Positions 7,941 through 30,271 of a DNA stretch of 33,640 nucleotides are shown here, one piece after another. Each line of letters begins with the position of its first letter. Within the stretch, counting starts at the first letter, position 1. The notes under the pieces were generated by a model, which saw only the letters and a program-made list of their open reading frames with translations, did no database searches and was not told where the DNA came from. Both the position numbers and the translations under genes were made by a program. The stretch comes from Blastococcus mobilis (lineage in GTDB: Bacteria; Actinomycetota; Actinomycetes; Mycobacteriales; Geodermatophilaceae), in NCBI RefSeq assembly GCF_900188025.1, contig NZ_FZNO01000038.1, positions 1-33,640 on the forward strand, written 5' to 3'.

Positions 7941-9527
7941 GTGGAACCGTCGATCCTGTCGCTGCTGCCAGCTCTCGTGACGATCATCCTGGCGATCGCC
8001 ACCCGGCGGATCCTGATCTCCCTCGGCGTCGGCATCGTGCTCGGGGCCCTGATGTACGCCGAGTGGGACGTCCTCGCCGCCCTCGAGTTCGTCCGGGAGG
8101 CGGCCTCGGGGCTCATCGTCGCCGACGGCGAGATCGCCGAGGAGGTCTACATCCTCGGCGCCGTCGTCCTCATCGGCGTCCTGTCCTCGCTCATCTACGT
8201 GTCCGGCGGTCTGCTCGCCTTCGCGTCCTGGGCCGTGCGGCGGGTCCGCACCCGCACCCAGGCGCAGTTCGTCCCGGTCGTGACGGGCATCGTGATCTTC
8301 TTCGACGACGCGTTCAGCAGCCTGGTCGGCGGCACCGTGAGCCGCTCGATCACCGACCAGCACCGCGTCTCCCGCGCCAAGCTGTCCTACCTGGTCGACT
8401 CGACCGCGGCTCCGGTGATCATCCTGGTCCCCATCTCCGGCTGGGCCGCCTTCATCGCCGCGACCATGACCGGCATCCTCGACGAGAACGAGGTCGACGG
8501 GCTCCACGGGTACGAGGCGTACCTGCAGTCCATCCCGGCGATGCTGTACCCGATCACCGCCCTGCTGCTGGTCGTCGCGGTGGCGTGGTTCAGCATCGAC
8601 ATCGGCCCCATGCGCCGGCACGAGCAGCGGGCGATCGAGCAGAACGTGCTGTTCGACCCCGCGCACGGCCTTCCGCCGGGTGAGACGGACCGCAACCTGC
8701 CGGTGCGCGAGGGCGGCCGCGTCCGCGACCTGGTCTGGCCCATCCTGACCCTGATCGCGGTCACGGTCGTCGGCGCACTGTGGATCGGCATCGCCGGGGC
8801 CGAGGGCTCGCTGGCGCCCATGGACATCCTGGCCGCCACCGACGTCATCCTGGCGCTGTTCTACGGCACCATCGCGGCCTGCCTCGTGGCCGCCGCCATG
8901 CTGCTGGTCCGGCGGACACCGGGCCGCGTGATCGGCAAGGCCGCGGTGTCCGGGGTGCGCTCCATGCTCTTCGCGGCCGCGGTGCTCTTCCTGGCCTGGA
9001 TCACGGCAGAGGTGATCGGAGAGCTCGGCATCGGCGAGTACCTGGCCGGAGTGATCGACGAGGCCCTGCCACTGGCCTTGTTGCCGGTCATCCTCTTCGT
9101 GCTGGCCTCGTTCATCGCCTTCTCCATCGGCAGCACGTTCGGGACCTTCGGTCTGCTGCTCCCGATCGCGGCGGAGATCGCGCTCTCCCTCGACAGCGCG
9201 CTGCTCATCCCGGTATTCGGGGCGGTGCTCGCCGGGGCGATCTTCGGCGACCACACGTCGCCGCTGTCCGACACCACGATCCTGTCCTCGATCGGCTCCG
9301 GGGTGCACCTCATCGACCACGTCACCACCCAGCTTCCGTACGCCCTGGTAGCCGCGGCGGCGTCGGCGGTGGGCTACCTCGTCTCCGGCCTCACGGAGAG
9401 CACCGGCCTCGGGCTCCTGGCTGCGGTGACTGCCCTCGCACTGGCCGTCCTCCTGCTGAAGGGGCGTAGCGCCGTCCGGGGTGCTGAGTCGGAGAGCGCG
9501 CCGCAGGTGGGCGAGGTCAAGGGCTGA
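7941..9527 (+). CDS. NhaC-family Na+/H+ antiporter (integral membrane)
   Basis: Protein of 528 residues from GTG 7941, with GAGGAGA seven bases upstream. It has about eleven to twelve hydrophobic segments across its length, a cytosolic linker near residues 225-265, and the conserved tract FIAFSIGSTFGTFGLLLPIAAEI followed by GAIFGDHTSPLSDTTILSS (shown in part). The GDHxSPLSDTT motif is diagnostic of the NhaC branch of the ion-transporter superfamily. The family includes Na+/H+ and malate-2H+/Na+-lactate antiporters, so with the FAH gene upstream the cargo could be an organic acid. It is convergent with the fmdB gene, with only 62 bases between them and no clear hairpin. Confidence 0.92.
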   Translation: MEPSILSLLPALVTIILAIATRRILISLGVGIVLGALMYAEWDVLAALEFVREAASGLIVADGEIAEEVYILGAVVLIGVLSSLIYVSGGLLAFASWAVRRVRTRTQAQFVPVVTGIVIFFDDAFSSLVGGTVSRSITDQHRVSRAKLSYLVDSTAAPVIILVPISGWAAFIAATMTGILDENEVDGLHGYEAYLQSIPAMLYPITALLLVVAVAWFSIDIGPMRRHEQRAIEQNVLFDPAHGLPPGETDRNLPVREGGRVRDLVWPILTLIAVTVVGALWIGIAGAEGSLAPMDILAATDVILALFYGTIAACLVAAAMLLVRRTPGRVIGKAAVSGVRSMLFAAAVLFLAWITAEVIGELGIGEYLAGVIDEALPLALLPVILFVLASFIAFSIGSTFGTFGLLLPIAAEIALSLDSALLIPVFGAVLAGAIFGDHTSPLSDTTILSSIGSGVHLIDHVTTQLPYALVAAAASAVGYLVSGLTESTGLGLLAAVTALALAVLLLKGRSAVRGAESESAPQVGEVKG

Positions 9528-15858: not shown

Positions 15859-17232
15859 TCAGCACTCGATGACGTTGACGGCCAGCCCGCCGCGCGAGGT
15901 CTCCTTGTACTTGACCTTCATGTCCCGGCCCGTGTCCCGCATCGTCTTGATCGCCTTGTCGAGGCTGACCTTGTGGCTGCCGTTGCCCGAGAGTGCCAGC
16001 CGGGCCGCGTTGATCGCCTTGACGCTGGCGATCGCGTTGCGCTCGATGCAGGGGATCTGCACGAGGCCGCCGACCGGGTCACACGTGAGCCCGAGGTTGT
16101 GCTCGATACCCACCTCGGCGGCGTTCTCCGCCTGCGGCGGCGTGCCGCCGAGCACCTCGCAGAGCGCCCCGGCCGCCATCGAGCAGGCCGACCCCACCTC
16201 GCCCTGGCAACCGACCTCCGCCCCGGAGATCGACGCGTTCTCCTTGAACAGGATGCCGATCGCGGCGGCGGTCAGCAGGAAACGGACGACGCCGTCGTCA
16301 TCCGCGCCCGGGACGAACCGCACGTAGTAGTGCAGGACAGCGGGCACGATGCCGGCGGCGCCGTTGGTGGGCGCGGTGACGATCCGCCCGCCCGAGGCGT
16401 TCTCCTCGTTCACCGCGAGGGCGAAGAGGTTCACCCAGTCCATCACGCGCAGCGGGTCGACCGAACCGGTGTCCTGGCTCAGCCCCTGGAACAGCGCCGG
16501 GGCGCGGCGGGGCACCTTCAGCCCGCCCGGCAGGACCCCCTCCCGGTGGCAGCCGCGCTCGACGCAGGCCTGCATGACCGACCACAGGTGCAGCATCCCG
16601 GCGCGGACCTCGGCCTCGGTCCGCCAGGCCTGTTCGTTGGCGAGCATCACGTCGCTGATCGACATCCCCTCGCGGGCACAGTGCTCGAGCAGCTGGGCGC
16701 CGGTGGTGAACGGGAAGGGCAGCGGGGTGTCGTCGAGGACCACCCGGTCGGCGCCGGTAGCCGCCTCGTCGACGACGAAGCCGCCACCCACCGAGTAGTA
16801 GGTCCGCTCGACGAGGACCGTGCCGTCGGAGTCCAGCGCCCGGAACACCATGCCGTTGGGATGGGCCGGCAGGGACTTGCGGCGGTGCAGCACCAGGTCG
16901 CCGTCGGCGTCGAAGGGCACCTCGTGCTTGCCGCCCAGGAGGAGGACGCCGTGTTCACGCGCCCGGGCGACGCGGTCGTCGGAGGAGTCGGTGTCGACGG
17001 TCGCCGGCTCCTCCCCCTCCAGGCCCAGGACGACTGCCTTGGCCGAGCCGTGGCCGTGGCCGGTCGCGCCCAGGGAGCCGAACAGCTCGGCCTGGATGCG
17101 GGCGACCTCGGGCAGCCGGCCGGCGTCGGCCAGGCCGTCGACGAACATCTTGGCTGCGCGCATCGGCCCCACAGTGTGCGAGGAGGAGGGGCCGATGCCG
17201 ATCGAGTAGAGGTCGAATGCGGACAGCGCCAT
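15859..17232 (-). CDS. sdaA: L-serine ammonia-lyase (iron-sulfur, single chain)
   Basis: Protein of 457 residues, the normal length for the fused alpha-beta form. The ATG at 17232 overlaps the soxG stop (TGATG). Conserved landmarks are [18 protein letters not shown] at the N-terminus, the substrate loop [16 protein letters not shown], and the [4Fe-4S] cysteines in [16 protein letters not shown] and [18 protein letters not shown]. It converts L-serine to pyruvate and ammonia in the cytosol and is oxygen sensitive. It completes the route sarcosine to glycine to serine to pyruvate encoded by the same operon. Confidence 0.95.
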
Positions 17233-17834
17233 CACGGCACCCGCGGGCCGGCGTACTCGGTGATCGCGTCGAGCAGCCAGCGGGCCACGTAGTCGGCGAA
17301 CGACGACCGGGGGAGGACCCGGTACGTCGTCGCCCCGGTCTGCCAGAGCAGGACCGGCACCAGACCGAGGGTGGTGGCCACCGCGGTGCCCGGCCCGAAC
17401 GAGCGCGGGTGAAGGTCGGCGGGGCAACCCTTCTCCAGCGTCTCGCGGGCGGCGGGGCCGCTGAGCTCGAGGGTGGTCCGGTTGGCCGACACGTCCACCA
17501 CGGCTCCCCGGTCACCGGCGAGCGCGTCGCGCAGCTCGGCCACCAGCGTGGCGGCCTCCGTGCCGGAGATCACCAGCCACTCGTCCGGGCCGAGCCACAG
17601 GACACCGTGCCGGCTGGACGACGTCACCTGTCCGCAGGCCTTGGGCAGTTCGGCACCGAGCCGCTCGCCGAGCCGGGCGAAGGCGGGGGAACCCGGGTCG
17701 ACCCGAACGCTGACCATGGTGAGGAACGGCAGCTCGCGCAGCGCCACGCCGCGCTCGCCGGCGATCCGCTCGGTCTCCAACCGGTCGTGCAGGTGGTGCA
17801 GCGGGCTGCGCCGCAGGGTGGCCAGGTCAGCCAT
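17232..17834 (-). CDS. soxG: Sarcosine oxidase gamma subunit
   Basis: Protein of 200 residues. ATG 17834 was chosen over the adjacent GTG 17837; it overlaps the soxA end by eight bases. The pattern SPLHHL near the start, [64 protein letters not shown] (shown as landmarks) and [12 protein letters not shown] is typical of the SoxG/GcvT-like gamma chain. It is a structural subunit of the heterotetrameric enzyme, packing against the GcvT-like part of SoxA. Its length and position between soxA and sdaA fit the usual operon. Confidence 0.93.
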
Positions 17835-20709
17835 CACGCTTGGTCCCTTCCGGGTCGTAGAGAACGGGTTCGGCGACCGTGACCGGAACCAGGTCCTCGC
17901 CCACCGGCGCGAGGAGGGTCTGCCCTATCCGGTTGCGGCCGTTGGCGACCAGCGCCAGCGCGAAGGGCCGCTCCAGCGCCTGGCTGTGGTAGCTGGAGGT
18001 GACGTGCCCCAGCATGGGGACCGGCCCGTCGGCCGGGGTCACCGGCACGTCCTGGTCGATGACCTGGGTGCCTTCGGGCAGCCGGGTCGTGCGGTCCTCG
18101 GGCAGCAGGGCCACCAGGTGCTTGCGGTCCGGCCGGGCGGTGTCGTCGCGGCTGAAGGATCGCTTGCCGACGAAGTCCTTCTGCTTGGAGACGATCCACT
18201 CCATGCCGAGATCCTGCGGCGTCACCGTGCCGTCGGTGTCCTGCCCCACGATGGGGTAGGCCTTCTCGGCCCGGAGCACGTGCATGGTTTCGGTGCCGTA
18301 GGGCGTGATGCCCAGGTCCGCCCCGGCGGCGTACACCTGCTCCCACACCGCCAGCCCGTACCACCCGGAGACGTTGACCTCGTAGGCGAGCTCCCCGGAG
18401 AACGAGATCCGCCCGATGCGGGCGGGGATGCCGGAGGCGAGGGTCGTCTCGCGGAAGGTCATGAAGGGGAACGCCTCGTTGGACACGTCCAGGTCCGGCG
18501 CGAGCCGGGCGACGACCTGGCGGGACTGCGGCCCGACGACCGCGACCGTCGTCCACTGCTCCGTGACCGAGGTGAAGGAGACGTCCAGCTCCGGCCACTC
18601 GGTCTGCAGCCACTCCTCGAGCCAGTCGAGGACGCGCGCGGCGCCACCGGTGGTGGTGGTCATGAAGTAGCGGTCGTCGGCGAGGCGGAGGGTGACCCCG
18701 TCGTCGAAGACCATCCCGTCCGCGGTGCACATCACCCCGTACCGGGCCGAGCCCACCGGTAGCTTCTTGAAGGCGTTGGTGTAGATCCGGTTGAGGAACT
18801 CGCCGGCGTCGGCGCCCCAGATCTCGATCTTGCCGAGGGTGGAGGCGTCCATCATCGCCACCCCGGTGCGCGCCGCCCGGCACTCGCGGGCGACCGCGGC
18901 GTCGATGTCCTCGCCCGGCTGCGGGTAGTACCACGGCCGCAGCCACTGGCCGACCAGCTCGAACTCGGCGCCCCGTGCCACGTGCCAGGGGTGGGCCGGG
19001 GTGGTGCGCTCGGGGTCGAACAGGCTGCCCCGCTCGCGGCCCGCCAGGGCGGCGAAGGACACCGGGGTGTAGGGCGCCCGGTAGGTCGTCGTCCCGATCT
19101 CGCCGACCGCCGCAACCCCGAGGGCAGCGGCGATCACGCCGATCGCGTTGACCGCGGAGGTCTTGCCCTGGTCGTGGGCGGTGCTGATGGAGGTGTAGCG
19201 CTTCACGTGCTCGACGTTGCACATGCCGGCGCCCGTGGCCCGCCAGACGTCGGCGACGGTCTGGTCGCGCTGGAGGTCGACGAAGTGCTCGTCCCACTCC
19301 TCCGGGCCGCCGCTGCGGCCCGGGACCACCCAGAGCTGCCGGGTCGGGCCGGAGGAGGAGGGGGCGACGGCTGCCGGAACGGTTGCCTCGACGGGGAACC
19401 CCGCGGCGACCGATGCGGCGATCCCGGCCTCCGTGCCCTCCGCCAGACACCCGGCGAGGGTGAAGGTGCCCTGCGCCGAGCCGACCACATGCTGGTCGCG
19501 CACCGTGCTGTCGGGCACGAATGCCGCCAGGGCGTCGTCCCAGCGCAGCCGGCCCTGCCGCTGGCTGTGCAGGTGCACCACCGGGCTCCAGCCGCCGGAG
19601 ACCGCCAGCAGGTCGCCGTCGAGCTGCTCGACGTCCCCGGTGAGCAGACCGTCGGCGTCCAGGCCGCTGATGAGGACGCCGGTGAGCCGCGGGTCGCCGA
19701 GCGTCTCCACCACGGCGCTGCCGGGAAGGACGCGGACCCCGGCCGCGGCCAGCTCACCGGCCCGGGCCGACAACTCCGGCCGGGCGTCCACCACGGCCAC
19801 CACCTCCACGTCTGCGGCGACCAGGTCGGCGGCGGTGTCGTAGGCGCTGTCGTTGGTGGTGGCCACCACGACCCGCGCGCCGGCGGCGACCGCGTACCGG
19901 TTGAGGTAGCCGCGCACGGCGGAGGCGAGCATCACGCCCGGGCGGTCGTTGCCGGCGAACACCAGGGGGCGCTCGTGCGCACCGGTGGCGAGCACCACTT
20001 GACCGACGCGGACGTGCCACACCCGCTGCCGGGAAACGCCCCGTGGGGCCGGGCCGGGCAGGTGGTCGGTGCGGTGCTGGACGGCGACGACGTAGTTGTC
20101 GTCGTAGCTGCCGAAGGCGCTGGTGCGGGTCAGGACGACGACCTCGGGCGCCGACTCCAGCTCCGCGACGACTCGCGCCACCCAGTCCAGGGCCGGGACG
20201 CCGTCGACGGTCTCGCCGCGTCCCGAGAGGAGCGAGCCACCGGGCTCGGCCTGCTCGTCGACGAGGACGACCCGCGCGCCGGAGCGGGCCGCCGCGGCCG
20301 CCGCCGCCAGGCCGGCCGGACCGGCTCCGACGACGAGGACGTCGGCGTGCACGAACTTCTTGTCGTAGACCGCCTCGTCCGGCGTCGGGTCCAGCCGGCC
20401 GAGACCGGAGAGCGTCCCGGCACGGAGCCCCTCCACGAGGGACACCGTGGTGGCGGTCAGCATCGATTCCGAGACGTCGCCGCCGACCTGCACCAGCGCG
20501 TTGGGCTCCTCGACCCCGGCGGCGACGATCCCGCGGGGGCGTCCGCGGTAGATGGACGGGGCGACCTCGATGCGGCCGTTGGCCAGCAACGCCGAGGCGA
20601 CGGTGTCGCCGGGGTGGCCGGTCAGCTCGACCCCGTCGACGGTGAAGCGCAGGACGGTGTCGCGGTCGATCCGGCCGCCGCTCGGCAGCCGGGAGGTCTG
20701 GTGGGTCAC
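17827..20709 (-). CDS. soxA: Sarcosine oxidase alpha subunit (FAD/NAD and GcvT domains)
   Basis: Protein of 960 residues from GTG 20709, preceded by GAGGAGGAT; the longer frame to 20787 is rejected. Residues about 1-95 form a ferredoxin-like 2Fe-2S-type N-terminal fold ([25 protein letters not shown] region). A dinucleotide-binding motif [12 protein letters not shown] follows near 125, then a second [18 protein letters not shown] nucleotide-binding segment. The C-terminal about 380 residues are a GcvT-like tetrahydrofolate-binding domain ([22 protein letters not shown] region to [18 protein letters not shown]). It takes the methylene from the iminium intermediate onto tetrahydrofolate. Intact. 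Confidence 0.95.
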
Positions 20710-20783
20710 GGATCCTCCTCGCTGGTGCTCGTCGGCCACGTGACCGACGGTGCTGTGTTCATCGCGTGACCTTGCGTGCTCGG

Positions 20784-21092
20784 TCACGAGGACGTCTCCG
20801 GGGAGGTGCCCGCCATGGCGGCGTCGGGACGGGGGTCGGTGGGCTTGTAGACGGCGAGCACGTCATAGGTGACGGTGTCCCGGACCGCGTTGAACCAACG
20901 GCGGCACCCGGTGCTGTGCACCCAGCGCTCGGCGAAGGCCCCCTTGGCGTTGTCGCGGTAGAAGAGGTACTCCGCCCACTCCTGATCGGGCAGGTCGGCG
21001 GGGGTGGCGGGGTAGGCGACGTGCGCCTGGCCCCCGTAGTGGAACTCGGTCTCGTCCCGTGGCCCGCACCAGGGACAGGTCAGCAGCAGCAT
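20784..21092 (-). CDS. soxD: Sarcosine oxidase delta subunit (zinc-binding)
   Basis: Protein of 102 residues from ATG 21092, with CGAGGAG upstream. It opens [20 protein letters not shown] and has the zinc ligands Cys6, Cys9, a histidine and a later Cys in [15 protein letters not shown], with the family phrase [13 protein letters not shown]. The delta chain is a small zinc-bearing structural subunit of the heterotetramer. It lies 24 bases after soxB and 74 bases before soxA. Confidence 0.95.
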
Positions 21093-21116: not shown

Positions 21117-22349
21117 TCAGTGGGCCACGGCGGCGGCGCCGTGCTCGTCGATGAGGGCTCCGGTGGCGAACCGCTCCAGCGCGAACGGCGCGTTGAGCGG
21201 ATGCGGCTGCCCGGTCGCCATGGTGTGCGCCATCGTCCAGCCGGCGGAGGGGGTGGCCTTGAAGCCGCCGGTGCCCCAGCCGCAGTTGACGTAGAGGTTC
21301 TCCACGGGCGTCTGCCCGATGATCGGCGAGGCGTCGGGGGAGACGTCGACGATCCCGCCCCAGGTCCGGAGCACGTGCGCCCGGGCGAAGATCGGGAACA
21401 GCTCCACCGCGGCGGCCATCTGGTGCTCGATGACGTGGAAGGAGCCTCGCTGGCCGTAGCCGTTGTAGGAGTCCACCCCGGCACCCATGACCAGCTCGCC
21501 CTTGTGCGCCTGCGAGACGTAGACGTGCACGTGGTTGGACATGACGACCGTCGGGTGCACCGGCTCGTACAGCTCGGAGACCAGCGCCTGCAGGGGATGG
21601 GACTGGATCGGTAGCCGGAATCCGGCCCGCTCGGCCAGCACGCTGCTGTGCCCGGCCGCGGCCATGCCGACGACGCCGGCGGAGATCGGCCCGCGGCTGG
21701 TCTCCACGCCCACCACCCGGGCCCCGTCCTTGAGGAAACCGGTGACCTCGCAGTTCTGGATGAAGTCGACGCCCAGCCGGTCGGCGGCGCGCGCGAACGC
21801 CCAGGCCACGTGGTCGTGCTTGGCGATGCCGGCCCGCGGCTGGAAGGTGGCCCCGAGCACGGGGTACCGGATGTCGGGGGACACGTTGAGGATCGGGCAG
21901 ATCTTCGCCACCTCGTCGGTGTCCAGCCACTCGGCGTCCACTCCGTTGAGCCGGTTGGCGTTGACCCGCCGGGTGGACTCCCGGACGTCCTGCAGCGTGT
22001 GCGCCAGGTTGAGCACCCCGCGCTGGCTGAACAGGAAGTCGTAGTCCAGCTCGGCGGGCAGCTGCTCCCAGAGCTTGAGGGCGAACTCGTAGATGCCTGC
22101 GCTCTCGTCCCACAGGTAGTTGGACCGGATGATCGTGGTGTTCCGGGCCATGTTGCCGCCGGCCAGCCAGCCCTTCTCCAGGACGGCGACGTTGGTCATG
22201 CCGTGGTTCTTGGCCAGGTAGTAGGCCGTGGCGATGCCGTGGCCGCCGCCACCGATCACGATCGCGTCGTACGAGGGCTTCGGATCCGGGTTGCGCCAGA
22301 GCCAGTCCGGATGCTCGGGCAGGTGGCGGGGATCGGTCTGCGCGCTCAT
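21117..22349 (-). CDS. soxB: Sarcosine oxidase beta subunit (FMN/FAD)
   Basis: Protein of 410 residues. ATG 22349 was preferred over ATG 22364 because it overlaps the glyA stop as ATGA. The FAD-binding motif [18 protein letters not shown] is near the N-terminus. The histidine in [16 protein letters not shown] (about residue 178) corresponds to the covalent FMN attachment site known in characterised SoxB proteins. The C-terminus carries [19 protein letters not shown] and [14 protein letters not shown], typical of the DadA-like oxidoreductase fold. It oxidises sarcosine and passes electrons through FMN to oxygen. Confidence 0.95.
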
Positions 22350-23647
22350 GCCGTTGCCGCCCATGACAGGCCCCCGTTCAACCGGGGGTACAGGGGGAAC
22401 TTCGCGGCGAGGGTCTCCACCCGGTCGCGCAGCTCGCCGGCGAGCTCGTCGGTGAGATCACGGGTGAGCGCGGTGGCGATGATGTCGGCGACCTCGCGGA
22501 ACTCCGTGGTGCCGAAGCCCCGGGTGGCCAGCGCCGGGGTGCCGATGCGCAGCCCGGAGGAGACCATCGGTGGCCGGGGGTCGAAGGGGACGGCGTTGCG
22601 GTTCACGGTGATGCCGATCCGGTCCAGCCGGTCCTCGGCCTGCTGACCGTCCAGGCTGGAGTTGCGCAGGTCGACCAGGACGAGGTGCACCTGCGTGCCG
22701 CCGGTGAGCACGGAGATGCCGGCTTCCTGGACGTCGTCGGCCATCAGCCGGCCGGCGAGCACCCGGGCGCCGTCGAGCGTCCGCTGCTGCCGCTCGCGGA
22801 ACTCCTCCGTGGCGGCGACCTTGAACGCGACCGCCTTGGCGGCGATGACGTGCTCGAGCGGGCCGCCCTGCTGGCCCGGGAACACCGCACTGTTGATCTT
22901 CTTGGCGAGTTCCGCCTTGCTGAGGATCACGCCGCCCCGTGGCCCGCCGAGCGTCTTGTGGGTGGTCGTGGTGACGACGTCGGCGAAGGGGACCGGGTTG
23001 GGGTGCAGGCCGGCCGCCACGAGGCCGGCGAAGTGCGCCATGTCGACGAGGAGGTAGGCGCCCACGAGGTCGGCGATCCTGCGGAACTCGGCGAAGTCGA
23101 GGTGGCGGGAGTAGGCCGACCAGCCGGCGACGATCATCTTCGGCCGGTGCTCGCGGGCGAGCCGCTCCACCTCCTCCATGTCCACGTGCAGGTCGGACTC
23201 GCGGACGTGGTACGGGACGACGTCGTAGAGCTTGCCGGAGTAGTTGATCCGCATGCCGTGCGTCAGGTGGCCGCCGTGCGCGAGGTCGAGACCCAGGATG
23301 GTGTCGCCCGGGTTCAGCAGGGCGAACATCGCCGCCGCGTTGGCCTGCGCGCCGGAGTGCGGCTGCACGTTCGCGGCCTCGGCACCGAACAGCGCCTTCA
23401 CCCGGTCGATGGCGAGCTGCTCGATGACGTCGACGTGCTCGCAGCCGCCGTAGTAGCGGCGTCCCGGATAGCCCTCGGCGTACTTGTTGGTCAACACGGA
23501 GCCCTGGGCGGCCATGACCGCCGAGGGGGCGAAGTTCTCCGACGCGATCATCTCCAGCGTCGACTGCTGGCGGTGGAGCTCGGCGACCACCGCGGCATGC
23601 ACGTCGGGGTCGAGCGCGCTGAGCTCGAGGTCGAGGATGTCGGCCAC
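22346..23647 (-). CDS. glyA: Serine hydroxymethyltransferase
   Basis: Protein of 433 residues from GTG 23647, with AGAAGGGA upstream. The in-frame extension to 23749 would run through the operator and is rejected. It has [47 protein letters not shown] and the PLP lysine in [14 protein letters not shown]. It interconverts glycine plus methylene-tetrahydrofolate and serine. As first gene of the sox operon it consumes both products of sarcosine oxidase. The C-terminal four bases overlap soxB (ATGA). It is probably a pathway-specific second copy besides the housekeeping gene. Confidence 0.96.
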
Positions 23648-23669
23648 GGCCGTCCCTTCTCTGGCTGAG

Positions 23670-23696
23670 TTGGTATGCAACGTCGTTGCGTACCAA
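23670..23696. promoter_or_regulatory. 27-bp near-perfect palindromic operator
   Basis: TTGGTATGCAAC and GTTGCGTACCAA flank a 3-base centre (GTC) and pair at 11 of 12 positions. It lies just downstream of the predicted glyA -10 box, where a bound repressor would block transcription. It contains two of the eight GCAAC/GTTGC half sites in this intergenic region. A helix-turn-helix dimer is the likely ligand; the IclR protein at 25290 is the nearest candidate. Confidence 0.75.
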
Positions 23697-23698
23697 GC

Positions 23699-23727
23699 AA
23701 CGTAGGTGTGCAACGGGCCACAGTCAA
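23699..23727 (-). promoter_or_regulatory. Promoter of the glyA-sox operon
   Basis: On the minus strand TTGACT (23722-23727) is separated by exactly 17 bases from TACGTT (23699-23704). This fits the actinobacterial housekeeping pattern. Two direct GCAAC half sites (23697-23701 and 23710-23714, read on the plus strand) lie in and beside the -10 box. Confidence 0.6.
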
Positions 23728-23775
23728 GGACCGCCATCGTCCTCGGCATCGCGCTCGAAGGGCGGTTGCTGCCGC

Positions 23776-23804
23776 TTGACAGTGGCGCAGACCACTTCTA
23801 CCTT
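23776..23804 (+). promoter_or_regulatory. Promoter of the creatinase gene
   Basis: TTGACA (23776-23781), 17-base spacer, then TACCTT (23799-23804). The -35 is a perfect consensus and the -10 keeps the T-A----T positions. The operator GCAAC-CAC-GTTGC begins two bases after the -10 box, over the likely transcription start. Confidence 0.55.
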
Positions 23805-23805
23805 C

Positions 23806-23830
23806 GCAACCACGTTGCCGCAGACGCAAC
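23806..23830. promoter_or_regulatory. GCAAC-N3-GTTGC operator with extra half site, creatinase side
   Basis: GCAAC at 23806-23810 and GTTGC at 23814-23818 form a perfect 5-bp inverted repeat, and another GCAAC follows at 23826-23830. The 3-base centre equals that of the palindrome on the glyA side, so both promoters probably answer to the same protein. Confidence 0.6.
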
Positions 23831-23949
23831 GCAGTCGGACTCGCACCAGTCAGTCGGACGCCGCTCCGCAAACCACCCGTCCAGGGGCGCGCGTACGGCA
23901 TCGCATCCCGGCTCCCGTGCACCGACCGTCAGGGAAGAGGAGAACCACG

Positions 23950-25179
23950 ATGTCCGTCACCGATCTCGAGCGCCTCAAGGTGATCCACAACGGAGAGAAG
24001 GAGCAGCACACCTTCTCGGTGGAGGAGATGGAGCGCCGGCTCTCGTCCCTCCGGAAGATCATGGCCGAGGAGGGCGTGGACGTCGCGCTGCTCACCTCGT
24101 ACCACAACGTGAAGTACTACTCGGACTTCCTGTACACGTCCTTCGGCCGGCCCTACGCCTACGTGGTGACGGCGGACGACCAGTACACCGTCTCCGCGAA
24201 CATCGACGCGGGCATGCCGTGGCGTCGCACCTACGGCGACAACGTGGTCTACACGGACTGGCACCGCGACAACTACATCTGGGTGATCCGCGAGAGCCTC
24301 CGCAGCCGGGGCGTCAAGCCCAGCCGGATCGGCGTCGAGGACGACACCCTGCCGCTGGAGATGCGGCAGAAGTTCGCCGCGGCGTTCCCCGACGCCGTCC
24401 TCACCGACATCTCGAAGGCGGCCATGCGCCAGCGCATGGTGAAGTCGGCCGAGGAGATCGAGGTCATCAAGCACGGAGCGCGCATCGGCGACCTGGGCGG
24501 CGAGGCGATCCGCGCGGCGATCACCGAGGGCGTCCCGGAGTTCGAGGTCGCCCTCGCCGGCACGAACGCGATGGTGCGGGAGATCGCCCGGACCTTCCCG
24601 CACACCGAGATCCGCGACACCTGGGTGTGGTTCCAGTCGGGCATCAACACCGACGGGGCGCACAACTGGCCGACGACCCGGCAGGTGCAGCGGGGGGACA
24701 TCCTCAGCCTGAACTGCTTCCCGATGACCTCGGGGTATTACACGGCCCTGGAGCGGACCCTTTTCTACGGGGAGCCGGACAAGCGCTCGCTGGAGCTCTG
24801 GGAGATCAACGTGGCCGTGCACCGGGCCGGCCTGGAGCTGATCAAGCCCGGCATCTCCTGCGCCCAGATCGCGCACTCGCTCAACGAGATGTACATCCAG
24901 CACGGCCTGCTGCCCAACCGGACCTTCGGCTACGGCCACTCCTTCGGGGTGCTCTCCCACTACTACGGCCGGGAGGCCGGGCTGGAGCTGCGCGAGGACA
25001 TCGAGACCGTCCTCGAGCCCGGCATGGTCGTCTCCATGGAGCCGATGATCATGGTGCCGGAGGGGCAGCCCGGGGCCGGTGGCTACCGTGAGCACGACAT
25101 CCTCGTGGTGAACGAGAACGGGGCCGAGAACATCACGAAGTTCCCCTTCGGCCCGGAGCACAACATCCTCGGGGTCTGA
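23950..25179 (+). CDS. Creatinase (creatine amidinohydrolase)
   Basis: Protein of 409 residues (characterised creatinases are about 403-411). ATG 23950 has AGAGGAGAA upstream; the longer frame from 23686 crosses the operator and is rejected. Blocks are near-identical to Pseudomonas creatinase: TSYHNVKYYSDFLY, YTDWHRDNY, WFQSGINTDGAHN (containing the catalytic His232 equivalent), GDILSLNCFPM, YYTALERTLF, FGYGHSFGVLSHYYGREAG and VSMEPMIM. The pita-bread fold is shared with Xaa-Pro peptidases, but creatinase does not use metal. It hydrolyses creatine to sarcosine and urea in the cytosol. It is divergent from glyA-sox, which use the sarcosine. Confidence 0.95.
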   Translation: MSVTDLERLKVIHNGEKEQHTFSVEEMERRLSSLRKIMAEEGVDVALLTSYHNVKYYSDFLYTSFGRPYAYVVTADDQYTVSANIDAGMPWRRTYGDNVVYTDWHRDNYIWVIRESLRSRGVKPSRIGVEDDTLPLEMRQKFAAAFPDAVLTDISKAAMRQRMVKSAEEIEVIKHGARIGDLGGEAIRAAITEGVPEFEVALAGTNAMVREIARTFPHTEIRDTWVWFQSGINTDGAHNWPTTRQVQRGDILSLNCFPMTSGYYTALERTLFYGEPDKRSLELWEINVAVHRAGLELIKPGISCAQIAHSLNEMYIQHGLLPNRTFGYGHSFGVLSHYYGREAGLELREDIETVLEPGMVVSMEPMIMVPEGQPGAGGYREHDILVVNENGAENITKFPFGPEHNILGV

Positions 25180-25216: not shown

Positions 25217-25262
25217 CGGCGATGCCACGCCGCGAGCCTCCGGCTGCGGCGTGGCGTCGCCG
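25217..25262 (+). terminator. Long hairpin terminator after creatinase
   Basis: CGGCGATGCCACGCCGC (25217-25233) pairs with GCGGCGTGGCGTCGCCG (25246-25262) over 17 positions with one wobble pair, and the loop is 12 bases. There is no T-run. It separates creatinase from the IclR gene. Confidence 0.65.
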
Positions 25263-25289
25263 GCGTCCGGACCACGACAATGGAGTTCG

Positions 25290-26096
25290 ATGACCACCAC
25301 CGGCAACCAGGTCGACCCCCAGGACGTCCCCGAGAACGGGGAGTCGCGCGGGATCTCCGTGCTCCAGAACGGCCTCGCCGTCCTGCGTGCCTTCGCGGTG
25401 GACGAACCCGTCCTGGGTGTCTCGGAGATCGCGGCGAAGGTGGGGCTGCACAAGAGCACTGTCTCCCGCATCCTGGCCACCCTCGAGCTGGAGAACCTGG
25501 TGGAGCGGGACCCGACCACCCGACGGTTCCGGCTCGGCCTGGGCGTGATCGCGTTGGCCGGGCCGCTGCTGGCTGACCTCGACGTGCGCCGGGTGGCCTA
25601 TCCGGTCCTGCAGGAGCTCAGCCGCCGTACCGGCGAGACGGCGGCGCTCATGGTCTGGGACGGGGGTGAGGCCGTGTGCGTCGAGCAGGTGCCGAGCACC
25701 CACCAGGTCAAGCACACGACCCCGCTGGGAACCCGCTACAACACCGCCGCGAGCTCGTCGGTACAGGTCTTCCTGGCCCAGCTCGATCCCTTCACCGTCC
25801 GGAACCTCCTCATCAAGGGCGTGGTCGACCACCCCGGGCTCACCGAGGTAGCCCTGGACGCTTTCGTCGTCAGACTCCGGGAGATTGCCGAGCAGGGGTA
25901 CGCGGTCAACTACGGCGAGACCTCGCTGGAAGAAGTCGGCGTGGCTGCTCCGGTGTTCGACCACCGGGGGGAGCCCGTAGCGGCGGTCCTGGTCTCTGCA
26001 CCGCGGTTCCGGATCTCCACCGAGCAGCTCGGCCTCATCCGGGAGGCGGTCACCGGAGCCGCCGCCGACATCGGTTCCCGTCTCGGCGGCGCCTGA
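25290..26096 (+). CDS. IclR-family transcriptional regulator
   Basis: Protein of 268 residues from ATG 25290, preceded by TGGAG. Residues 22-85 form the winged helix (VLQNGLAVLRAFA, LGVSEIAAKVGLHKSTVSRIL, then LVERDPTTRRFRLG). Residues 100-265 form the IclR effector domain (LQELSRRTGETAALMVWDG, GTRYNTAASSS, EQGYAVNYGETSLEEVGVAAPVFD). IclR proteins bind short palindromes as dimers or tetramers and respond to small metabolites. Its position straight after creatinase makes it the likely regulator of the shared glyA/creatinase operator, with creatine or sarcosine as possible effector; that part is inference. It is convergent with the PucR gene. Confidence 0.92.
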   Translation: MTTTGNQVDPQDVPENGESRGISVLQNGLAVLRAFAVDEPVLGVSEIAAKVGLHKSTVSRILATLELENLVERDPTTRRFRLGLGVIALAGPLLADLDVRRVAYPVLQELSRRTGETAALMVWDGGEAVCVEQVPSTHQVKHTTPLGTRYNTAASSSVQVFLAQLDPFTVRNLLIKGVVDHPGLTEVALDAFVVRLREIAEQGYAVNYGETSLEEVGVAAPVFDHRGEPVAAVLVSAPRFRISTEQLGLIREAVTGAAADIGSRLGGA

Positions 26097-26195: not shown

Positions 26196-27728
26196 TCAGG
26201 TCGGCTGTTCGAGTCGCGACTGCTGGAGGCCGTGGCGCAGCCGCAGCGCCAGGTGCAGCGGCAGGACGCGGTCGGTGCCGGTCGGATCCCCGCCGACCAT
26301 CCTGAAGACCCGATCCAGGCGGCCGTAGAGGGATTGCCGCTGCACGTGCAGGGCATCCGCAGTGCGCGTCTTGCTGCACCCGGAGTCGAGGTAGACCTCG
26401 AGCGTGTGCAGCAGCGTCTCGCGTTCGGCCGGCCGCAGTGCGAGCAGCATCGCCAGCTGGCCGCGGACGAACTGCTCGCGCCGGAGCCGGAGATCCTCGC
26501 CGCCGAGCAGGGACTCGATGGCGGTGGCCGTCGCATCCACCACCGAGCCCGGACCGTACGCGGACCGCTGCTGCACCGCCGACACCGCGAGCTCCATCGA
26601 CGTGGACACGGACGCCAGGTCCGGGACGACGGGCCCGACTCCGACGACCACGGCGTTCAGGTCCCGCGCCCATTCCTTCACCTGGGCGACCAGTGCCGCG
26701 CGGCCGGTGGCCGCGGTCTTGCGGTCGGGCAGGGACAACACCGCACGGACCTCGGTCTCCGAGGTGTCCATCGCGATCCGGCCGTGGCGGCGGAGGAGTC
26801 CGTCGAAGCCCGGGAGGCCGGCGCTCGTGGCCGCGGTGATCAGGGCGATCGCCACCACTGGATCGGCGGGATCGAACCCGATGAGCTGCCCGAGGTGGAT
26901 CAGCCGGGTGGGGTTCTGCGGGGCGCGGCATGCCGTCCGGGCGAGTTCACTGGCCGCGAAGTCCCGGGTCGACGGTGGGTGACTGCGCAGCAGGGCCAGC
27001 CCGATCGCCTCGCTGGCCCGCTCGCCGATGACCGCCAGGAGCTCCGGGTCGGTGTCCGGCCGGGGGTAGAGGATGAGGGTCGCCGCGTGCGCGCCCCGGA
27101 CGCTGATCCGGGACGTCGTGCCGCCGACCGGGGGAGACGGTGACTCGGCCGGCAGGGCGTCCTCGGGGTCCGGGAACCGGGTGATCAGCCGACCGGCGCT
27201 GGTGAACAGCGCCGCCGGGACGCCGGTGCGCTGCACCAGCAGCTCCAGGAGCGCGCGGACGTCCCCGCCGTGCGCGAGGATGCCCGACAGCGCGTGCGCG
27301 AGCTCGCCGCCGTAGCGGAGCAAGATGACCGACTGGTTCACCAGTTCGGCGTTCACCGCTTCGGCCACATCGACGAACGGGATCCGGCGGCGTAGTTCGA
27401 TGACCGGGAAACCGACGGCGTCCGCCTCGGTCAGCACCGCCTCCGGCACGGCGGAGAGTCCCGAGCCGATCTCGATCGCCACCCCGGCGACGTTGCGCTC
27501 GGCCAGCTGGCGTACGTACCGGCGCTGATCCGCTGCCGAGGCGCCGGCCAGCATCTCGCCACCGGTCAGCAGCAGCTCTCCGCCGCGCAGCAACGACGCG
27601 ATCTCGATGACCTCGCTCGAGTGGATCCACCGCACCCTCCGCCGCAGGCCGGAGGACCCCGCGAGCACGAAGGGTTCACCAGGGGTGAGGCTTGGGTGAG
27701 CGAGCACGCGTTCCAGCGTCAGCTGCAT
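26196..27728 (-). CDS. PucR-family transcriptional regulator
   Basis: Protein of 510 residues from ATG 27728. Residues 10-125 are the PucR-like purine-catabolism sensor domain (VRWIHSSEVIEIASLLRGGELLLTGG pattern and RNVAGVAIEIG). A GGDEF-like central region follows, and the C-terminal HTH_30 motif reads LLHTLEVYLDSGCSKTRTADALHVQRQSLYGRLDRV in outline, near residues 440-480. The family activates purine, allantoin, cytosine or amine use. It is divergent from the NCS1 permease and very probably controls it. Confidence 0.92.
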   Translation of the reverse strand: MQLTLERVLAHPSLTPGEPFVLAGSSGLRRRVRWIHSSEVIEIASLLRGGELLLTGGEMLAGASAADQRRYVRQLAERNVAGVAIEIGSGLSAVPEAVLTEADAVGFPVIELRRRIPFVDVAEAVNAELVNQSVILLRYGGELAHALSGILAHGGDVRALLELLVQRTGVPAALFTSAGRLITRFPDPEDALPAESPSPPVGGTTSRISVRGAHAATLILYPRPDTDPELLAVIGERASEAIGLALLRSHPPSTRDFAASELARTACRAPQNPTRLIHLGQLIGFDPADPVVAIALITAATSAGLPGFDGLLRRHGRIAMDTSETEVRAVLSLPDRKTAATGRAALVAQVKEWARDLNAVVVGVGPVVPDLASVSTSMELAVSAVQQRSAYGPGSVVDATATAIESLLGGEDLRLRREQFVRGQLAMLLALRPAERETLLHTLEVYLDSGCSKTRTADALHVQRQSLYGRLDRVFRMVGGDPTGTDRVLPLHLALRLRHGLQQSRLEQPT

Positions 27729-27789
27729 GACGATTCGTCACCCCATGACCCGGACATGCCGGACAGGATGCATCTTGTCGCGTGTGATC

Positions 27790-27809
27790 TGCAACACCCA
27801 CGATGTTGC
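27790..27809. promoter_or_regulatory. GCAAC/GTTGC inverted repeat before the NCS1 permease
   Basis: TGCAACA (27790-27796) and TGTTGC (27804-27809) form an inverted repeat with a 7-base centre, 37 bases before the permease start and between it and the divergent PucR gene. It shares the GCAAC half site with the glyA/creatinase operators but has different spacing. Confidence 0.4.
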
Positions 27810-27845
27810 GACCGAGAGCACATCCGTCGACCGGAGGCCCGCCCC

Positions 27846-29372
27846 ATGTCAGCCGCAGCCAAGACCGAGCCGGCGTCCATTCACGACGTCGAGGAGCAGC
27901 TCCAACCGATCCCCGAGAGTTCCCGCACGACCAAGGTGTCCGGCCAGTTCTGGATCTGGTGCGGCGCCAACATCGCCCCGATCAACTGGGTTCTGGGTGC
28001 GCTGGGCGTGAACCTCGGCCTGGGCCTCGCCGACACGCTGACCGTCCTGATCCTGGGCAACCTGATCGGCATGGCGGTCTTCGGCCTGTTCGTGCTGATG
28101 GGGCAGCGGACCGGCGTGACCGGGATGGTGCTGGGCCGCGCAGCGTTCGGCCGCCGTGGCAACTACCTGCCCTCGCTGATCCAGGCCACCCTGTCCATCG
28201 GCTGGTGCGCGGTGAACACCTGGATCATCCTCGACCTGGTCATTGCGCTGCTCGGGCAGTTGGGCGTCGTCGACCCGGCGGCGGACAACTACGCGGCCAA
28301 GATCGCGGTCGCCGCGCTCCTGATGGCGATCCAGGTGGCGATCTCCTGGCTGGGGTACCGCGCGATCGCGGCCTTCGAGCGCTGGACGGTCCCCCCGACG
28401 ATCGCAGTCCTCGTCCTCATGTCCGTCGTGGCCTGGTTCTTCCTCGACATCGACTGGTCCTACGCCGGCCCGGAGGGAGCCGTGCTCTCCGGAGGAGAGC
28501 GGTTCGCCGCGATGACCGCGATCATGACCGCGATCGGTATCGGCTGGGGGATCACCTGGTTCACCTACGCGGCTGACTACTCGCGCTTCGTCAGCACCCG
28601 GATGCCCCGGCGCAAGCTCTACTTCGCCAGCACGCTCGGCCAGTTCATCCCCGTCGTCTGGCTGGGCGTGCTGGGGGCCACCCTGGCCACCAAGAACGGT
28701 TCCGTGGACCCGGGCCAACTCATCGTCGAGAACTTCGGAGCGCTGGCGATTCCGGTGCTGCTGCTGGTCCTGCACGGGCCGATCGCCACCAACATCCTCA
28801 ACATCTACACCTTCTCGGTGGCGACCCAGGCCCTCGACATCAAGATCCCCCGACGCAGCCTGAGCGTGCTGGTCGGCGTCCTGGCCATGGGGGTCGTGAT
28901 CTTCTTCATCTTCCAGGAGAACTTCGCGACGGTCCTGGACACGTGGCTGATCGGACTGGTGGCCTGGGTGGCGACCTGGGGCGGGATCATGCTCGTCCAC
29001 TACTACCGGATCGAACGTGGCCGCGTGCGCGTCGACCGTCTCTTCGACCCCGTGGGAACTCGCCGCCTGGCCGACGTGAACTGGGCCGGATACGTGGCCT
29101 TCTTCACCGGGATCTTCGCCACGTGGCTGTTCATGTACGGGCTGCTTCCCATCTTCCAGGGCCCGATCGCCGTCGGCATGGGCGGCGTGGACCTGAGCTG
29201 GCTCGCGGGCGGGCTCACGAGTGCGGCGGTGTACGCCGTGCTCGGCCCGATCGCCGCAGCCAAGTACGAAGGGATCGCGCCCGACGCCACCGTGCGTTCC
29301 GACGTCGCGACCCCGGCTCCGCGGGTCGCCCCTGTCGCGAACGCCGCCGGCACCCCCGAGGTGATCGCATGA
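27846..29372 (+). CDS. NCS1-family permease (cytosine/purine/hydantoin/allantoin type)
   Basis: Protein of 508 residues from ATG 27846; the frame upstream of this is noise. It has about twelve membrane segments. The first is FWIWCGANIAPINWVLGALG, followed by NLIGMAVFGLFVLMGQRTGV and GRAAFGRRGNYLPSLIQ, the typical nucleobase-cation-symport-1 layout (WxGANI, RxAFGRRGN, WFTYAADYSRF). The family carries cytosine, purines, allantoin, hydantoins or thiamine with H+ or Na+. The cytosine deaminase homologue nearby suggests a nucleobase-like cargo. Its TGA overlaps the next gene's ATG. Confidence 0.92.
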   Translation: MSAAAKTEPASIHDVEEQLQPIPESSRTTKVSGQFWIWCGANIAPINWVLGALGVNLGLGLADTLTVLILGNLIGMAVFGLFVLMGQRTGVTGMVLGRAAFGRRGNYLPSLIQATLSIGWCAVNTWIILDLVIALLGQLGVVDPAADNYAAKIAVAALLMAIQVAISWLGYRAIAAFERWTVPPTIAVLVLMSVVAWFFLDIDWSYAGPEGAVLSGGERFAAMTAIMTAIGIGWGITWFTYAADYSRFVSTRMPRRKLYFASTLGQFIPVVWLGVLGATLATKNGSVDPGQLIVENFGALAIPVLLLVLHGPIATNILNIYTFSVATQALDIKIPRRSLSVLVGVLAMGVVIFFIFQENFATVLDTWLIGLVAWVATWGGIMLVHYYRIERGRVRVDRLFDPVGTRRLADVNWAGYVAFFTGIFATWLFMYGLLPIFQGPIAVGMGGVDLSWLAGGLTSAAVYAVLGPIAAAKYEGIAPDATVRSDVATPAPRVAPVANAAGTPEVIA

Positions 29373-30271
29373 CGATCTCCTGGCCGAACGGCCACCGCGC
29401 GGCGGCGGCCTTCACCTTCGATGTGGATGCCGAGTCCTGCGTCCTGGCCCACGACCCGGCCGCGTCGTCGCGGATGTCCCTGATGACGCACCAGGCCTAC
29501 GGACCCCGGGTCGGGGTGCCCCGGCTGCTGCGACTTCTGGAGCGCAGGGGGGTGACGGCGACCTTTTTCGTGCCGGGGTTCACCGCCGACACCTATCCGG
29601 ACATGGTGCGCCAGATCCGCGACGCCGGGCACGAGATCGCCCACCACGGGTACCTGCACGAGCCGATGCAGGGCATCTCCGCCGAGGCCGAGGCCGAGTA
29701 CATCGATCGGGGTCTCGAGGCCCTCGACCGGCTGGGCGTGCGGCCGGTGGGCTACCGGGCACCCTGGTGGGAGATGAACTGGCATTCTGCGGACCTGCTC
29801 ATCGAGCGCGGCTTCCACTACGACTCGAGCCTTCTCGATGGGGACGTCCCCTACCGGTTCTCCGGGGAACTGGGGCAGGGCGATCTCGTGGAGATCCCCG
29901 TCGACTGGACCCTCGACGACTGGGAGCAGTACGCCTTCTATCCCGGATGGACCGGCAGTGGCGTCATCGAGAGCCCGGCGAAGGTGCACGAGATGTGGCT
30001 GCTCGAGGCGCAGGCCCACCACGCGGAAGGCGGCTGCTTCGTCCTGACCAATCACCCGTTCATCTCCGGGCGTCCATCGAAGGCAGCCGCGCTCGAGCGG
30101 CTGATCGGCGACGTGTGCGAGCTGGACGGAATGTGGGTCGCGACCCTGGGCGAGATCGCCGCACACACAGCCGCGACGGTGGGCGAGGTCCGCCGGATCA
30201 GGCGGGTGGAGTGCCCCGAGGGCTACTTCGACCGCCCGGCGACGCCGAAGGCGACCGCCAGCGCCCAGTGA
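29369..30271 (+). CDS. Cytosolic polysaccharide-deacetylase-fold (CE4) hydrolase, possible cyclic-amide hydrolase
   Basis: Protein of 300 residues. ATG 29369 overlaps the permease stop (ATGA), so translation is coupled. There is no signal peptide. NodB-type motifs are FTFDVD (residues 15-20), EIAHHGYLHEP (His92, His93, His97), RAPWWEMNW (130-138) and a late TNHPF histidine, so Asp-His-His metal binding looks intact. Some intracellular members of this fold, such as PuuE allantoinase, open cyclic ureides instead of deacetylating sugars. The permease upstream and deaminase downstream favour such a role, acting on a hydantoin or pyrimidine derivative. The substrate is inference. Confidence 0.85.
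   Translation: MTISWPNGHRAAAAFTFDVDAESCVLAHDPAASSRMSLMTHQAYGPRVGVPRLLRLLERRGVTATFFVPGFTADTYPDMVRQIRDAGHEIAHHGYLHEPMQGISAEAEAEYIDRGLEALDRLGVRPVGYRAPWWEMNWHSADLLIERGFHYDSSLLDGDVPYRFSGELGQGDLVEIPVDWTLDDWEQYAFYPGWTGSGVIESPAKVHEMWLLEAQAHHAEGGCFVLTNHPFISGRPSKAAALERLIGDVCELDGMWVATLGEIAAHTAATVGEVRRIRRVECPEGYFDRPATPKATASAQ

Follow-up and report, generated by a model that had tools for sequence, protein, structure and literature searches.

In the gap between the glyA and creatinase genes of Blastococcus mobilis we identified a conserved three-box site that is present in two identical copies, with one copy at each inferred promoter. It has the geometry of IclR-type operators and co-occurs with relatives of the IclR-family regulator encoded beside creatinase. 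As judged from sequence comparison, this neighbouring regulator is very probably a repressor that controls creatine and sarcosine breakdown at both sites, and this predicted three-box address is also found at genes of the pathway in numerous other soil bacteria. The analysis was based on a stretch of 33,640 nucleotides (contig NZ_FZNO01000038.1), referred to below as the window, and the features of interest are presented in Table 1.

Table 1. Genes, three-box sites and promoter-like elements around the glyA-creatinase gap, in window coordinates.
Feature	Position	Strand	Remarks
soxG (sarcosine oxidase gamma)	17232..17837	-	TIGR01375 above cut-off
soxA (sarcosine oxidase alpha)	17827..20787	-	TIGR01372 above cut-off
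soxB (sarcosine oxidase beta)	21117..22364	-	TIGR01373 above cut-off
glyA (serine hydroxymethyltransferase)	22346..23647	-	first gene of the divergent operon; assigned by homology
27-bp palindrome, TTGGTATGCAAC-gtc-GTTGCGTACCAA	23670..23696	.	12-base arms, 11/12 match; spans boxes 1 and 2 of site 1
Site 1 (O-gly), GCAAC-N3-GTTGC-N7-GCAAC	23677..23701	+	exact; overlaps the -10 and the likely glyA transcription start
-10-like TACGTT of glyA-sox	23699..23704	-	inferred; overlaps box 3 of site 1
-35-like TTGACT of glyA-sox	23722..23727	-	inferred; 17-base spacer
-35-like TTGACA of creatinase	23776..23781	+	inferred; 17-base spacer
-10-like TACCTT of creatinase	23799..23804	+	inferred
Site 2 (O-cre), GCAAC-N3-GTTGC-N7-GCAAC	23806..23830	+	exact; one base between the creatinase -10 and box 1
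Creatinase (creatine amidinohydrolase)	23950..25179	+	PDB 1chm, E 1.7e-175; Pfam M24/Creatinase_N
IclR-family regulator	25251..26096	+	Pfam IclR_C/HTH_IclR; proposed binder of both sites

The start codons of glyA (23647) and creatinase (23950) are separated by 302 bases, and the regulator gene follows creatinase on the same strand after 71 bases. Judged from homology, the identities of creatinase, soxA, soxB and soxG are secure. A PucR-type regulator, an NCS1-type permease and a PuuE-like protein of the polysaccharide-deacetylase family are encoded farther downstream in the window. The permease and PuuE-like genes, in this order at 27621-30271, also have matches at the creatinase loci L002, L007, L008, L012 and L060, and a possible role of their products is the uptake and ring opening of a compound such as creatinine. 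A Creatininase-family gene is located elsewhere in the genome, on another contig (C59).

The preliminary description of this DNA had listed eight GCAAC or GTTGC pentamers within 154 bases, and all eight were confirmed in the gap (23677, 23685, 23697, 23710, 23765, 23806, 23814 and 23826). Six of them form the two sites of Table 1, in which the boxes start at offsets 0, 8 and 20; in the whole 5.09-Mb genome the exact pattern is found twice, both times in this gap, with 0.0084 copies expected from composition. The remaining two pentamers, at 23710 and 23765, are not matched at equal offsets in any of seven other divergent loci, some of which carry extra pentamers at other places. Because two of the eight are thus not conserved, the single cooperative operator of eight half sites that had been proposed was rejected in favour of two three-box sites accompanied by two unconserved pentamers.

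The density of the pentamers was compared with that of randomized sequences. None of 5000 dinucleotide shuffles of positions 23652-23950 reached eight GCAAC/GTTGC copies (mean 1.07, largest 6), and the densest stretch of equal size in the rest of the window has three. In a fairer test, in which any pentamer was allowed, some pentamer reached at least eight copies in 123 of 3000 shuffles, so that the count alone is modest evidence; it is the shared three-box arrangement, which the preliminary description had not noted, and its conservation that are decisive. The 27-bp palindrome noted earlier, with 11 of 12 matching arm bases, was found again. Such structures are not rare: palindromes with 12-base arms, no more than one mismatch and 0-8 bases of spacer occur at six distinct places in the window. 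The palindrome was discarded as a functional unit because its TTGGTA/TACCAA ends were not observed around the sites of other loci.

The half sites had also been described as lying over both predicted promoters. This holds in so far as -35 and -10 sequences 17 bases apart can be recognized ahead of each gene, whereas a strict sigma-70 scan found no promoter in the glyA-creatinase gap. Additional information was obtained from 126 sites with at most one mismatch, present in 79 of 88 sources: TTGAC occurs upstream in 83 of them and starts 30-34 bases before box 1 in 82, and in the logo of these TTGAC-bearing sites a TAnTCT-like -10 ends just before the box. The three-box site therefore likely spans the transcription start. 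With a conserved site on each inferred promoter, the suggestion that creatinase and glyA-sox share a divergent control region is supported.

Conservation of the repeats in orthologous intergenic regions was analyzed in the best 80 of 580 relatives from a creatinase scan of species genomes, which together with the window gave 81 sources (882,950 bases). In this set the exact site was found in 60 of the 81 sources (74 copies) and a site with at most one mismatch in 73, so that the repeats are indeed conserved. At the same tolerance, the reversed pattern and two patterns with altered spacing were found in 0 of 81, and patterns of arbitrary boxes in 0, 0 and 4. Two locations of the site were observed, immediately ahead of creatinase or, in many loci of the Arthrobacter type, approximately 1.5 kb upstream, where it precedes an MFS-type transporter gene that is itself ahead of creatinase; a scan of only the 400 bases before creatinase misses these loci. 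Just 3' of box 3, many Arthrobacter-type loci (L011, L012, L015, L018, L019 and relatives) carry a further inverted repeat resembling CCAAA-n-TTTGG, observed by eye, which precedes the transporter gene. When dyads were counted in the 81 upstream stretches, GTTGC-N7-GCAAC was found in 18 and GCAAC-N3-GTTGC in 17; the top dyad was CCGCT-N2-AGCGG (28), which we assumed to reflect upstream coding sequence.

The conservation is concentrated in the boxes. In five divergent loci (the window, L002, L105, L106 and L107) the boxes of both sites are 100% identical, whereas identity is 31% and 33% in the spacers. In the adjoining 25-base stretches it is 34% to the left of site 1, 52% to its right, that is, toward the glyA -35, and 25% to the right of site 2. 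All four creatinase-bearing genomes among the 112 of the window's family have two exact sites each. Among 394 genomes of the class, the exact site is present in five of the eight with creatinase versus seven of the 386 without it, and the reversed control in one of 394; of the other three creatinase-bearing genomes, two (L108 and L110) have one-mismatch sites, and in L111 creatinase lies at a contig end. Two genomes without creatinase at the threshold used, G057 and G301 (loci L097 and L099), share one identical exact three-box site, perhaps belonging to another regulon of the same kind. Among the 16 genomes listed for the genus, creatinase was found in that of the window only, and this patchy occurrence in genus and family (4 of 112 genomes) suggests that the cluster may have been gained by transfer.

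The IclR-family protein had been named as a candidate binder, and two lines of evidence, the three-box geometry typical of IclR sites and the co-occurrence of site and regulator, make it the likely one. In the 80 of 88 sources with intact creatinase surroundings, site and IclR match are found together in 74, the site only in one (L006, with no IclR match in its 11 kb), the IclR match only in two (L075 and L067, with no site within one mismatch) and neither in three. The eight loci that end near creatinase (L005, L024, L026, L034, L045, L046, L047 and L111) were left out of this tally; four of them have the site and four do not. In Glutamicibacter creatinolyticus (L067) the IclR match, at approximately 8693-9149, is split between frames and no site was found within two mismatches; what is apparently the same genome has a second creatinase locus (L198, G626), where the exact site occurs three times and the IclR match is uninterrupted by stops.

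The association was also analyzed genome-wide in 295 genomes of one family (that of G002), where the exact site was found in 113 and the reversed pattern in two. An IclR match at E <= 1e-60, a threshold that also admits paralogues, was found in 125. Both were present in 110 genomes, the site only in three, the IclR match only in 15 and neither in 167 (Fisher 8e-60, relatedness ignored), so that 110 of the 113 exact-site genomes carry a relative of the window's regulator. Among the 15 genomes with the IclR match only, a one-mismatch site was found in 14 and lay at most 9 kb from the IclR match in 11; since the reversed control at one mismatch also matched in seven of these 15, the distance carries more weight than the number of matches. 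It should be mentioned that the counts and Fisher values overstate independence, because Arthrobacter relatives dominate the loci and the 295 genomes represent one family.

The predicted recognition helix also speaks for the IclR protein as the binder. In the window's regulator, whose effector domain has a solved relative (PDB 3obf), the helix reads HKSTVSR from residue 67 of the open reading frame as listed. Among the 78 IclR relatives compared at creatinase loci, HKS[TS]VSR is found in 72 and HKSSASR in one, and five are gapped; L067 and L046, with a weak IclR match, were left out of the comparison. The next IclR relative in the window's own genome is 30% identical to the regulator, and the HKS[TS]VSR helix was found in none of the eight, out of ten, other relatives of that genome with an aligned helix.

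The genes adjoining the sites were identified by automatic choice of open reading frames and homology, with paired sites counted twice. Their products include MFS-type transporters, creatinase, GlyA, S-(hydroxymethyl)mycothiol dehydrogenase and BCCT-type transporters. The representative of the mycothiol dehydrogenase scores 668 bits with TIGR03451 (cut-off 513), and it fits as a target because sarcosine oxidase makes formaldehyde; the BCCT and MFS representatives, both 400-residue fragments, do not reach the curated cut-offs. These lists are incomplete, because no right-hand neighbour was recognized for 74 of 111 exact sites in the short stretches scanned. A second set of exact sites has a different promoter and a distinct N7 spacer (L160, L163, L175, L188, L194, L212 and L219; L222-L226). 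At all eight translated sites of this set, in seven loci, the site precedes an open reading frame similar to N-carbamoylsarcosine amidohydrolase, and one such protein that was searched matches PDB 1nba (E 5e-158); in an eighth locus no site was found in the strand scanned. The five loci of the second set with flanking sequence all contain IclR paralogues, 43-54% identical to the window's protein over the matched stretch, with the helix HKSTVSR in at least one paralogue at each locus, and four of them contain a hydantoinase-like gene.

We propose that the IclR protein keeps both promoters and its own gene repressed until it is released by a metabolite of the pathway, a reading to which we assign a probability of about 85%. 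Each site would be occupied by one dimer, seated on either the N3 or the N7 pair, or by a tetramer covering the three boxes. When bound, the protein would shut off the glyA-sox operon at the same time as creatinase-iclR, and thereby also its own expression, and the two sites would act in parallel, so that looping would be unneeded. A repressor role is deduced from position only, since in both genes the boxes overlap the -10 or the likely transcription start. For the effector, sarcosine is a guess with roughly even chances, made because it is the metabolite common to the genes adjoining the sites; creatine, likewise guessed from the content of the regulon, is clearly a weaker candidate. More tentatively, and at somewhat less than even odds, a GCAAC three-box code, with a TTGACaGTG-like promoter at many targets, may be recognized by IclR paralogues that form a small clade and share the helix, and may in several actinobacterial families connect the whole route that leads from creatine and N-methylhydantoin via sarcosine to glycine and to the detoxification of formaldehyde; as the middle box can pair with either neighbour, two dimer registers may give a stepwise response.

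Other explanations were weighed against repression by IclR. The same boxes could be used by IclR as an activator which, like PcaU, recruits polymerase when the metabolite is present; PcaU is an activator. The poor -10 elements are of the kind that activator-dependent promoters would have, and three-box sites of the IclR family include that of PcaU (main text of PMC8222616), but the promoter-type boxes begin just past the -10 and cross the likely start, a place that suits blocking rather than recruiting, and activation is thus an unlikely reading. We consider it very improbable that the boxes are bound by a different protein, for example PucR or a global nitrogen regulator, and that IclR is linked to the site by bystander synteny. 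PucR, which had been suggested as a possible binder, is encoded nearby in the window and at some of the other loci, but it has no positive association with the site, being matched in 28 of 75 loci with the site versus four of five without it, and was set aside. The box geometry matches IclR sites, the site is associated with IclR relatives across the genomes of one family, and the consensus CTAT-N6-ATAG given for the nitrogen regulator AmtR in the main text of PMC8864220 looks unlike the boxes. That the repeats arose by chance and have no function has a negligible probability: the any-pentamer shuffles leave some room for it, whereas boxes, spacing and promoter position are conserved across genera.

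A cooperative loop, in which IclR tetramers join the two sites across 129 bp, was analyzed using the spacing of paired sites, which have the same orientation, with up to two mismatches allowed in the partner, and lie 92-168 bp apart. Of 163 distinct promoter-type sites, 54 have such a partner, so that pairs are frequent; the background rate, 433/6720, is inflated because the stretches scanned included real sites, and it was left out of account. In a first, smaller set of 39 pairs the spacings bunched at about 123, 133-137, 141-147, 157 and 165-168, and the periodicity was reached by one of 2000 nulls for all pairs, by one when clustered by spacing, by three with one value per cluster and by 125 for distinct spacings. 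With more loci, however, the gaps between the bunches were partly filled (138, 140, 150, 152 and 154). For the best period between 9 and 13, the signal was then reached by 11 of 2000 nulls with all 54 pairs, by 35 when clustered by spacing and by 1981 with distinct spacings; for a period of 10.5 bp the corresponding numbers were 6, 7 and 604. The distinct spacings thus show no periodicity, and the remaining signal comes mainly from a mode at 140-147, which may reflect shared ancestry. Moreover, 109 of the 163 promoter-type sites have no such partner. The tests for periodicity disagree, and looping is a less likely reading than repression by IclR through two sites acting in parallel.

For the breakdown of creatine, creatinine and sarcosine, the analysis yields a candidate for the regulator, together with an exact 25-bp site and a defined set of genes; enzymes of this pathway serve in clinical assays of creatinine. 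Moreover, the well over one hundred natural sites make it possible to study how three boxes are used by IclR proteins.

Transcriptional control of related pathways is known from other bacteria. In the actinobacterium Corynebacterium glutamicum, creatine and creatinine use is likewise under transcriptional control, although by AmtR, a nitrogen regulator of the TetR family whose CTAT-N6-ATAG sites look unlike the GCAAC boxes (PMC8864220, main text, in which the term "iclr" does not occur). Genes of sarcosine catabolism are likewise controlled by different regulators, namely SouR/GbdR in Pseudomonas, as given in the same text, and SoxR with sigma-54, hence another promoter type, in Bacillus thuringiensis (in the part of PMC4941409 consulted). 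We found no IclR regulator of creatine, creatinine, sarcosine or N-carbamoylsarcosine genes in the literature, of which the broader coverage was partial.

The sites can be compared with the IclR motifs described in the main text of Suvorova & Gelfand 2021 (PMC8222616), in which "creatin*" and "sarcosine" do not occur (supplementary tables aside). Two motif types are distinguished there, group 1, with GTT-11-AAC as the largest subgroup, and group 2, TGRAACA-N1-2-TGTTYCA; three-box sites combining both were predicted for 32 orthologous groups, with PcaU, PobR and HmgR as earlier cases. Both sites of the window contain a group 1 pair, as GTTGC-N7-GCAAC corresponds to GTT-N11-AAC, and a group 2 pair, as GCAAC-N3-GTTGC corresponds to AAC-N3-GTT, and a linked IclR-family gene co-occurs with the site. 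The boxes fit the majority consensus GTTYC/GRAAC in four of five letters, the fourth being G instead of Y, and this G is kept in the sites of other loci as a sequence variant. According to the same main text the consensus is typical rather than defining, since departures are also found in listed members such as HutR, MhpR and TphR. Operators of this kind are already known, whereas this creatine/sarcosine regulon was not found described, the supplementary tables of PMC8222616 aside. The operators of PcaU, PobR and HmgR (Acinetobacter baylyi and Pseudomonas putida) likewise combine a palindrome with an external direct half-site into three boxes and serve catabolic pathways. They differ in the boxes, GTTCG for PcaU and GTCCG for PobR versus GTTGC here, and in the substrates, aromatics versus creatine and sarcosine; in addition, the site described here is positioned at the likely transcription start, which suggests repression.
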